64,000 bases of DNA from the NCBI RefSeq assembly GCF_014647115.1, contig NZ_BMOO01000004.1, positions 248,001 through 312,000 of the forward strand, given 5' to 3'. Of the stretch, positions 35,829-55,723 are shown one piece after another. The position numbers and the translations under genes were made by a program. This DNA comes from Halarchaeum rubridurum. Lineage in GTDB: Archaea > Halobacteriota > Halobacteria > Halobacteriales > Halobacteriaceae. The notes under the pieces were generated by a model, which was given only the letters and a program-made list of their open reading frames with translations, did not search any database and had not been told where the DNA came from. Each line of letters starts with the position of its first letter. Positions within the stretch are counted from its first letter, which is position 1.

Positions 35829-36124
35829 CGACACATCGCGAGTCGTCCCCCGGCTCTCGGGGGGATGACGGCTCTCCGAGCCGTCCGACCTCGCCCTGCT
35901 CACGCCTCGTTCCGCCCTATTCGCTTTCTGGAAGCCTGACGGCTTCCCCTTGCTCGCGGGTCGTCCCTCCCCGCTCGCTCTCCGAGGTCTACGGCTCTCC
36001 GAGCCGTACGACCTCGCCCTGCTCACGCCTCGTTCCGCAGCGTCGGACGGGCGAGTCGCCCGTCCGGTTCGCGGAATCTGCGATTCCGCCCTATTCGCTT
36101 TCTGGAAGCCTGACGGCTTCCCCA
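35829..36124. repeat. Hairpin-module array overlapping the 3' end of the aminopeptidase gene
   Basis: A gene-free spacer built of perfect short hairpins: 35847-35863, 35868-35884, 35930-35947, 35991-36007, 36045-36065, 36072-36088 and 36104-36121 (stems 6-10 bp, loops 1-5 bases). Two longer blocks are duplicated: ACGGCTCTCCGAGCCGT plus following bases (35868 and 35991, offset 123) and the block from 35917 to 35949 that repeats the last codons and stop of the aminopeptidase (36091 onwards, offset 174). Confidence 0.85.
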
Positions 36125-40046: not shown

Positions 40047-40180
40047 CGCGCCGTTCGCTCGTCCAGTCGCGCGTGGCGCGACTCGCTCGCGGCGTCACCG
40101 CTCGCGTTATCGTTGCCCTCCGGGCAACGTTGCTCACGGCATTCGCGCCGTTCGCCCGTCCAGTCGCGCGTGGCGCGACT
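40047..40180. repeat. Hairpin-module array overlapping the gapI stop codon
   Basis: A 37-base direct repeat (40047-40083 and 40144-40180; one mismatch, offset 97) ends in the perfect hairpin AGTCGCGC-GTG-GCGCGACT. The second copy runs into the TAG stop codon of gapI (40179-40181). Between the copies lies another perfect hairpin GTTGCCC-TCC-GGGCAAC (40112-40128). The remaining bases are low-complexity GCGAGCG-type sequence. Confidence 0.85.
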
Positions 40181-43197: not shown

Positions 43198-43469
43198 GGT
43201 TACTACCCGATGCTGACGGCTAGGGCGGGGTTAAAGCCTTCGAACTGGTGGAGAGAAGCGCTAGCGACTCTCCGCCGAACGAGCGAGCGGTGACCGACGG
43301 GGAGCCGCGAGCGGGGCGTTCCCGGCGACGAGCGGAGGGAGGCGGCGGGAACGAGATATGCGAACGCGGAGCGGCCGGTAGGGGCGATGCGTGAGCGCTG
43401 GTGTCTCGCGCGACGCCGCGACGACGGCAATCTTCTTCCCGCCGGGCGTCGTTCTCCCCGACGACCCAC
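43198..43469. other. Divergent intergenic region L10e / HerA-like gene
   Basis: 272 bases without a supported gene. It contains the L10e TATA element (43231-43238), a GGAGAG/CTCTCC stem-loop around 43251-43274 and GC-rich GAGCGAGCGG-type sequence. No clear TATA element was found for the plus-strand gene. Confidence 0.4.
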
Positions 43470-53640: not shown

Positions 53641-55521
53641 ATGAAGATCGTCCCGGACACGAGCGTGGTCATCGACGGCCGCATCTCCCGACGCGTGGAG
53701 AGCGGCGAGTACGCCGGGGCCACCGTCTACGTGCCCGAGGCCGTCATCGGCGAGATCGAAGCCCAGGCGAACAACGGGCGCGAGATCGGATGGGACGGCC
53801 TCTCGGAACTCCAGCGACTGGCGGAGCTCGCCGACGCCGGCGACATCGACGTCGAGTACGTCGGCGAGCGCGCGAGCGAAGCGGAGATTCAGCGGGCGTC
53901 CGCGGGAGCTATCGACGCGAAGATACGCGACCTCGCCGTCGCACACGACGCGACGTTCGTCACGAGCGACATCGTGCAGGCCGAGGTGGCGAAGGCGAAG
54001 GGGCTTGCCGTCGAGTACCTCGAACCGGAGGCCCGCGAGGTCGAGGCGCTCGCCATCGAGAACTACTTCGACGAGTCGACGATGTCCGTTCACCTGAAGG
54101 ACGGCGTCGTCCCGATGGCGAAACGCGGCGACGTCGGAAACATCACCTACCAGGAGATCGGCGAAACCGAACTCGACACGGAGACCCTGAAGGAGTACGC
54201 GAGCGAAATCCGCGACACCGCGAAGCGAAGCGACGACGCCTTCATCGAACTCTCCGAGGAGGGCATGACCATCGCGCAGGTCCGCGACATGCGCATCGCC
54301 ATCGCGACGCCGCCGTTCTCGGACGGCTTCGAGATCACCGCGGTTCGCCCCATCGTCAAGACGACGATGGCGGACTACGAGCACGAGGAGGACCTCAAGG
54401 AACGCCTCCTCGAACGCGACCGCGGCGTCCTCATCGCGGGCGCACCCGGTGCCGGGAAGTCCACGTTCGCGCAGGCCGTCGCCGAGTTCCTCGACGACAA
54501 CGGCTACGTCGTGAAGACGATGGAGAAGCCACGCGACCTTCAGGTCGAGGAGGAGATCACGCAGTACACCGAACTCGGCGGGTCGATGGAGAAGACCGCG
54601 GACTCCCTCCTGATGGTCCGGCCGGACTACACGATATACGACGAGGTCCGCAAGACGGACGACTTCGAGGTCTTCAGCGACATGCGCCTCGCGGGCGTCG
54701 GCATGGTCGGCGTCGTCCACGCGACGCGGCCCATCGACGCCCTCCAGCGCCTCGTCGGGCGCGTCGAACTCGGGATGATTCCGCAGATCGTCGACACGGT
54801 CGTCTTCATCGAGGACGGGGACGTCGACACCGTCTACAACGTCACGACCGAGGTGAAGGTCCCCGAGGGCCTCATGGAGGAGGACCTCGCGCGGCCCGTC
54901 ATCCAGGTCACGGACTTCGAGACGGGGACCCCCGCCTACGAGATTTACACGTTCAACCGCCAGGTCGTCACGGTGCCCCTCGACGGCGAGAACGGGGCGA
55001 GCGAGTCCGGCGTCGACAAGCTGGCGAAGAACGAGATCGAGCGCGAGATTCGCTCGGCGACGCGCGGGCCCGTCGAGGTCGAACTCCGCAGCGGCAACGA
55101 GGCCGTCGCCTACGTTACCGAGGACGACATCAGCCACGTCATCGGGAAGGGCGGCGGGCGCATCCAGGACATCGAGAACCGCCTCGGCGTCACCATCGAC
55201 GTGCGGACGTTTGAGGACAAACCCGACCACGCGGACGCGCCGAGCGACGGCGGGAGCGAACGCGGCGGTGCGGGCGGCGCGGACGCCAGCGAGGTCGGCG
55301 GCGAGGTCGTCACGCCCGAGATTACCGGCCAGCACATCATCATCCCCGTCACGGAGGCGAGCCCGGGCGAGACCGTCGAGGTCCGCGCGGACGGCGAGTA
55401 CCTCTGCACGGCGACGGTCGGGCGCGGCGGCGAAATCCAGATATCGCGCGGGTCGGCCATCGCCGAGGAGCTAGAGCGCGCCATCGACCGGGAACTGCTG
55501 GTCACGGTCGTGCGGGAGTAA
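53641..55521 (+). CDS. PIN-domain/KH-domain ATPase (PINc/VapC family ATPase, COG1855)
   Basis: 626 residues. N-terminal PIN nuclease-like domain (1-150) with acidic residues in VPDTSVVIDG (D7), AVIGEIEAQ, AIDAKIRDLA and ATFVTSDIVQ. A PilT/VirB11-like ATPase follows, with Walker A GAPGAGKST at 267-275 and HATRPIDALQRLVGRVELG. A type-1 KH RNA-binding domain lies near residue 500 (VIGKGGGRIQDIENRLGV), then a flexible link and a TRAM-like beta-barrel. A conserved archaeal protein thought to act on RNA; its substrate is unknown. The stop codon TAA is part of a repeated element (55516 onwards). Confidence 0.9.
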   Translation: MKIVPDTSVVIDGRISRRVESGEYAGATVYVPEAVIGEIEAQANNGREIGWDGLSELQRLAELADAGDIDVEYVGERASEAEIQRASAGAIDAKIRDLAVAHDATFVTSDIVQAEVAKAKGLAVEYLEPEAREVEALAIENYFDESTMSVHLKDGVVPMAKRGDVGNITYQEIGETELDTETLKEYASEIRDTAKRSDDAFIELSEEGMTIAQVRDMRIAIATPPFSDGFEITAVRPIVKTTMADYEHEEDLKERLLERDRGVLIAGAPGAGKSTFAQAVAEFLDDNGYVVKTMEKPRDLQVEEEITQYTELGGSMEKTADSLLMVRPDYTIYDEVRKTDDFEVFSDMRLAGVGMVGVVHATRPIDALQRLVGRVELGMIPQIVDTVVFIEDGDVDTVYNVTTEVKVPEGLMEEDLARPVIQVTDFETGTPAYEIYTFNRQVVTVPLDGENGASESGVDKLAKNEIEREIRSATRGPVEVELRSGNEAVAYVTEDDISHVIGKGGGRIQDIENRLGVTIDVRTFEDKPDHADAPSDGGSERGGAGGADASEVGGEVVTPEITGQHIIIPVTEASPGETVEVRADGEYLCTATVGRGGEIQISRGSAIAEELERAIDRELLVTVVRE

Positions 55522-55690
55522 CGCGGCGCTTCGCGCCGCGAGACGACGAGCGGAGAGCGATAGCGACCCGTGAGTAACGCGGCGCTTCGCGCCGCGGGGA
55601 AGCGAACGGCGAAGCCGTGAGTAGCGCGGAACCTCCGGGTCCGCGAGACGGCGAGCGGACCGGGACGTACGGCGCGGCTTCGGCAAGCGA
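55516..55690. repeat. Three tandem hairpin units starting at the PIN-ATPase stop codon
   Basis: Units begin with GAGTAACGCGG (55516), GAGTAACGCGG (55572) and GAGTAGCGCGG (55619), spaced 56 and 47 bases. Units 1 and 2 carry the identical perfect hairpin CGCGGCGC-TTC-GCGCCGCG (first at 55522-55540). Unit 3 has a related hairpin with one mismatch (55627-55643). GAGACG(A/G)CGAGCGGA follows the hairpin in units 1 and 3. The first GAGTAA contains the gene's stop codon, and the later units retain TAA or TAG. Confidence 0.85.
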
Positions 55691-55723
55691 ACTCCTTTTG
55701 CACCTCGCCCGCGGAGGGCGTGT

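Follow-up and report, generated by a model that had tools for sequence, protein, structure and literature searches.

The tandem hairpin units behind the PIN-domain ATPase gene of Halarchaeum rubridurum probably belong to a REP-like, RAYT-less family of mobile palindromic DNA repeats of haloarchaea, about 45–75 bp in length. The units were first noticed in the window (the whole stretch of 64,000 nucleotides that was analysed), and the analysis confirmed that they are real and form part of something larger. A unit consists of a short tag, which reads GAGTAR where a gene ends and often GAG-Y-R-G within arrays, then a GC-rich hairpin (H1) and a further hairpin (H2).

Behind the PIN-ATPase, three units beginning GAGTA(A/G)CGCGG were recovered at 55516, 55572 and 55619, with spacings of 56 and 47, as the earlier note had described. 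Its other structural claims also held. The 19-nt perfect hairpin CGCGGCGC-TTC-GCGCCGCG occurs identically at 55522–55540 and 55578–55596, while H1 of the third unit (55625–55645) is imperfect. The TAA of the first unit is the stop codon of the PIN-ATPase reading frame (55519–55521), such that the final Glu codon plus TAA (55516–55521) doubles as the first tag, and the later units keep a stop codon at the matching place. The second hairpin of each unit, for example ACGGC-GAA-GCCGT, had been overlooked; the units follow the order tag, H1, linker, H2, next tag. Features of the window are listed below, with scores from the covariance models R1 and R2.

53641–55521, + strand: host gene for a PIN-domain ATPase of 626 aa (open reading frame list; orthologs in 80 haloarchaeal loci).
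55516–55571, + strand: unit 1, with tag GAGTAA, H1 at 55522–55540, linker, and H2 at 55550–55571 (R1 42.6 bits, R2 49 bits).
55572–55618, + strand: unit 2, with tag GAGTAA, H1 at 55578–55596 (identical to H1 of unit 1), and H2 ACGGCGAAGCCGT at 55606–55618.
55619 to about 55675, + strand: unit 3, with tag GAGTAG, degenerate H1 at 55625–55645, and degenerate H2 (29.9 bits).
35950–36096, − strand: second stop-anchored array, in which GAATAG ends a 314-aa gene and is followed by H1 GCGGAATC-GCA-GATTCCGC.
40083–40135, − strand: single family unit with tag GAGCAA (covariance models).
43253–43314, + strand: weak single family unit (covariance models).

The array at 35950–36096 holds an additional unit at 35956–36016. 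Some arrays contain a nested palindrome of another kind, CGTACGGGCGACTC..GAGTCGTCCGTAC or similar: at the end of an rpa-like gene in G003 (L268), in G005 (L273), and at about 36040–36060 of the window. Separately, CCTTTTGCACCTCG at 55690–55705, ahead of the next gene, is kept in three Halarchaeum species and may be the real terminator or a promoter element.

The PIN-ATPase protein is 96% identical to that of H. nitratireducens and 93% identical to that of H. acidiphilum. Four units follow the gene in the former and two in the latter; the H1 arms differ, and the start GAGTAGCGCGG is shared. A tag-free scan of the 80 ortholog loci found convincing gene-end units in two Halarchaeum loci only.

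The bare 11-mer GAGTA(A/G)CGCGG, proposed earlier as a search string, was weakly enriched in this genome (20 matches compared with 7 for the reversed control) and not enriched in relatives, and was rejected as a family marker. The expected relation of its matches to stop codons was nevertheless seen, with at least 8 of the 20 lying exactly on a gene's stop and most others being later units of arrays. Owing to the weak enrichment, covariance models were used instead. Model R1, built with the tag included from an alignment of 20 units (A1), gave 89 matches at E ≤ 0.01 and 102 at E ≤ 1 in the Halarchaeum genome, with a top score of 72 bits. The control model R3, from the reversed alignment, gave 6 at E ≤ 1, the best at 22.7 bits; E-values from these models are rough. 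The copy number is high and beyond chance, with the 89 matches at E ≤ 0.01 lying within 2.8 Mb, mostly between genes. R1 matches were found in 25 of 26 Halobacteriaceae genomes. When filtering was tightened, 175 of 242 Halobacteria genomes, belonging to 56 of 74 genera, still gave matches; one Halobacterium genome (G012) gave none. Across 800 kb from three other genera, the tag-free model gave 26 matches at E ≤ 0.1, compared with 2 for the reversed model.

Within A1, 48 cells show changes at both members of an H1 or H2 pair, whereas wobble cells are few, and sliding or shuffling the pairing partners abolished these two-sided changes, which are supportive only, as A1 units were in part picked for good hairpins. 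No supported Rfam family was found. The sole match, to a miRNA, had an E of 0.054 and 23.4 bits, below the gathering score of 47, and was taken as chance. The open-access literature yielded no paper naming such a repeat family in haloarchaea. In Halobacterium G010, seven equal-score matches with an exact 77-bp spacing (L291 8910–9426; G010:C1:2168910–2169426) constitute a recent tandem expansion of the family. The spread of units along the same contig is very uneven, with none at 1.0–1.2 Mb and about 20 at 2.0–2.2 Mb.

Many arrays of this Halarchaeum genome are anchored on stop codons. Since R1 contains the TAR tag, a second model (R2) was built without tags, spanning H1 to H2. It gave 68 matches of at least 28.7 bits, grouped in 40 arrays. 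In 22 of the 40 arrays, the start of the first H1 falls between −2 and +1 nt relative to the stop of a gene-like open reading frame, a fraction that is approximate because the gene calls were home-made (open frames with acidic composition); the remaining 117 positions of the ±60 interval hold 6 arrays in total. Exclusion of the training arrays left 12 of 29 stop-anchored (p about 1 × 10−20 against the ±60 background). All 22 anchored stops are TAG or TAA, while TGA accounts for 49% of gene ends in the sample, which comprised 400 kb plus the window and was used beside the array loci (p = 5 × 10−7). GAN-TAR is present at 17 of the 22, compared with a background of 23%. As some training arrays were found through GAGTAR, the 12 untrained anchored arrays provide the cleaner figures: TAR in 12/12 (p = 3 × 10−4) and GAN in 8/12 (p = 0.0015). 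As to orientation, 22 arrays lie on a sense stop, and one has its 3′ end abutted by the stop of an antisense gene.

Unbiased samples from three other genera (G010, G173 and G114) contained one array starting on a stop. Many of the best R1 matches across genera lie on stops, but R1 selects for the tag. Strong anchoring is thus established in this Halarchaeum genome but not class-wide. Hairpins of at least 7 bp occupy the stop at 13 of the 30 orthologous ends from three Halarchaeum relatives, compared with 17 of 316 sample genes (p = 5 × 10−8), indicating that the location is inherited above background while the arms are rewritten. A TAR preference at hairpin-bearing ends across the Halarchaeum orthologs was not significant.

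Filled and empty versions of the same site, which support mobility, were found within protein genes. In one MAG locus (L084), a single unit lies in-frame within the PIN-ATPase gene, reading GTGTCCGAGCAG/TGCGTCGCGCCGGAGGCGCGACGAGAAGGCGGCGAAGCCGCC/GAAGCC; the empty site, GTGTCCGAGCAG/ATCGAAGCC, is present in the relatives L053 and L055, and nearly so in L094 and L069 (GATCGACGCC in L069). Two further sites were identified in Halobacterium cobN. Site A carries a unit in G010 and G014 but lacks one in eight Halobacterium genomes; at site B, G010, G011 and G016 have the unit and seven genomes do not. The cobN inserts are in-frame and 57–60 bp long (57 bp for the site A unit); they have CAGTCGAGCGGGGA..GACCCGCGAGACG in common with a few variable positions, and their H1 sequences differ. 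The filled sites appear to reflect gain, not loss, because the filled state is the minority and the insert sequence is shared. At the PIN-ATPase site GAGCAG was already present, whereas the TAG at cobN site A arrives with the insert, so that not every insertion lands behind a tag that was there before. No clear target-site duplication was found at the cobN or PIN-ATPase junctions.

Once in place, arrays grow by local tandem duplication, since later tags often copy the final bases of the host gene (GAGGAATAACGCGG at C7:55281, GACGTAGGCG at C1:588674, GAATAGCG at C3:2784). At C1:143206 and C5:209755, a two-unit block of 114 nt has been duplicated, and the enoyl-CoA hydratase end carries four tags in this genome, compared with one in G005. 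Units are usually head-to-tail. In L261 (G005, the ortholog of the gene ending at G000:C2:428516), reverse-oriented units stand behind the first H1, which suggests an inversion within the array. The copied tags, together with the 22 of 40 tag-free arrays and the filled and empty sites, support the proposal of insertion at, or spread from, the ends of genes.

Several other explanations of the units were considered. The suggestion that the element preserves termination is not supported as a statement of purpose. If the TAA and TAG of later units were backup stops that catch readthrough, as the window tags GAGTAA, GAGTAA and GAGTAG might imply, they should be in frame. Unit lengths, however, shift the reading frame: the next in-frame stop of the PIN-ATPase array is a TAG within H2, 39 nt on, and not a tag; among 25 arrays examined, the next in-frame stop coincides with a tag in only about 8, roughly the level of frame chance; and many internal tags are GAGCAG or GAGCGG, which are not stops. 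Backup stops are contradicted as a general rule, and we regard them as exceedingly improbable.

The structure of H1 bears on whether the hairpins act as RNA or as DNA. H1 usually has a stem of 8–9 bp with a triloop, or of 9 bp with an internal loop and an inner stem. Among perfect H1 hairpins, the triloop is GNA or its complement TNC in 19 of 26, every one closed by C-G, compared with 50 of 442 background hairpins (p = 4 × 10−12). In DNA, a GNA loop with a C-G closing pair has exceptional stability. The arms at cobN site A are the same in two species but enclose TTC in G010 and GAA in G014, as if the hairpin had been inverted. The presence of GNA/TNC loops in both orientations and the rarity of wobble pairs favour hairpins that act at the level of DNA. 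A terminator of the T-run type was also considered and rejected, as T4 within 120 nt downstream was not enriched (8/40 arrays compared with 47/316 gene ends, p = 0.36); the intergenic termination motif of Haloferax consists of T stretches (PMC7237163). These loops, the in-gene inserts and the lack of T-tract enrichment downstream speak against a multiplied RNA 3′-end structure being the main reading. A functional RNA, that is a 3′-UTR hairpin module set at the stop (for 3′-end protection, termination or ribosome release), selected and locally multiplied, would account for the sense orientation, the exact placement at stops, the retention of stop hairpins at ortholog ends even though H1 arms differ, and the double compensatory changes; E. 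coli REPs that lie no further than 15 nt from a stop affect translation (PMC12306157). It would not account for units in-frame inside genes or, among scanned orthologs, for a PIN-ATPase array restricted to Halarchaeum, and the DNA-type loops, the scarcity of wobble pairs, the absence of T-tract enrichment and the lack of a supported Rfam family all argue against it. We consider such an RNA unlikely. An origin with no mobility at all seems less likely again. Template switching (quasi-palindrome correction) would render GC-rich spacers palindromic and slippage would expand them, with the likeness between genes being convergent. This account is in keeping with arms that are perfect yet little conserved in sequence, with the tandem duplication of blocks, with the high GC content and with the DNA-type loops. 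However, neither the linker/H2/tag grammar common to loci and genera nor the failure of the reversed control would be expected from convergence. Whole units also occur as clean in-frame insertions, at two cobN sites, where their second halves match, and once in PIN-ATPase.

The preferred reading, a mobile DNA repeat, finds its closest likeness in the bacterial GTAG REP/BIME sequences (PMC3733652; PMC6006769). As in these, a tag lies directly 5′ of a 7–9 bp hairpin with a tiny loop, stem letters come in alternative, complementary versions, copies are numerous and mostly downstream of genes, and units are tandemly reiterated. Bacterial GTAG REP termini 'often provide' the TAG stop of flanking open reading frames (PMC3733652). 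The haloarchaeal units differ in being archaeal, in their looser tag and two hairpins, in being nearly always head-to-tail, whereas dimers of REP are said to lack this arrangement or to show it less than expected (PMC3733652; PMC6006769), and in that no RAYT was found. Against the usual definition of REP, with GTAG or GTGG at 0–2 nt 5′ of the hairpin, many tags are GAGTAG, and GAGTAA, GAGCAG, GACTAG and GAGCGG are common. The defining stem (a paired basal stem of 7–20 nt with a 2–5 nt loop, or a long hairpin with an inner stem) is present, as are many, mainly extragenic copies. RAYT profile NF047646 was above cut-off in none of the 26 Halobacteriaceae genomes, and for want of a RAYT the units were not filed as REP, although they work like REP.

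Rickettsia palindromic elements are likewise small palindromes in-frame in unrelated protein genes; they are about 150 bp long and typically located in genes (PMC10969869), whereas the haloarchaeal in-frame inserts are about 57 bp with two hairpins, and units in Halarchaeum are mostly intergenic, at gene ends. MITEs, reported for Halobacterium and Haloquadratum according to a citation in PMC10969869, resemble the units in being short, non-coding, multicopy and presumably moved in trans; the units are without an established target-site duplication or terminal inverted repeats shared with a known transposon.

Enzymes of the IS200/IS605 kind are encoded in this genome, which has two Y1 proteins, both IS605-type and one of them broken. 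Transposons of this group work through hairpins that are recognised in single-stranded DNA, and their insertion takes place 3′ of a short target, which thereby becomes part of the element. No convincing unit adjoins the Y1 genes of this genome, the intact one included, a difference from IS200/IS605 transposons. In a survey that included 172 archaea, archaeal Y1 proteins were of IS200-type subclass 1.1 only (PMC6006769).

Taken as a mobile repeat, a founder unit would settle 3′ of a gene end with its tag coinciding with the last codon and stop, mostly Asp/Glu plus TAR, which leaves the gene undamaged. The unit may then be multiplied in tandem by slipped replication or by unequal exchange across its hairpins, with the last bases of the gene copied into later tags. 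Copies would move via a single-stranded hairpin intermediate with a transposase acting in trans, for which an archaeal IS200/IS605-type Y1 is the likeliest candidate. Enrichment at gene ends may arise from a tolerance or preference of the tag for GAN-TAR, together with the purging of insertions at other places. A wider reading is tentative and, on balance, doubtful: that the units are a class-wide archaeal repeat, moved in trans by a Y1/HuH transposase and integrating at GAN-TAR, a REP system that arose or persisted without RAYTs. With the last codon and stop as its integration signal, such a repeat could colonise gene ends without damage.

In bacteria, REP-like palindromes feature prominently in genomes and go together with RAYT transposases. 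A counterpart in haloarchaea that has two hairpins and stop anchoring but no RAYT offers a test of how such repeats move. Stop-anchored units also test whether hairpins next to stops affect archaeal mRNA, and the filled and empty cobN and PIN-ATPase sites make mobility directly testable. Annotators should be aware that a repeat shares, or is the source of, some C-terminal Glu/Asp plus stop contexts and some in-frame peptides, SSGEHSDPRD being one example.

An IS605-type tnpA (L036, G000:C5 about 71724–72044) is interrupted, where the K codon meets the Y codon in YHFVWCPK/YRHPVL, by about 51 bp with two other perfect hairpins, GCGGGATC-GGA-GATCCCGC and GCAAATC-GAA-GATTTGC. This is a further small palindromic insertion with GNA loops, distinct from the unit described here.
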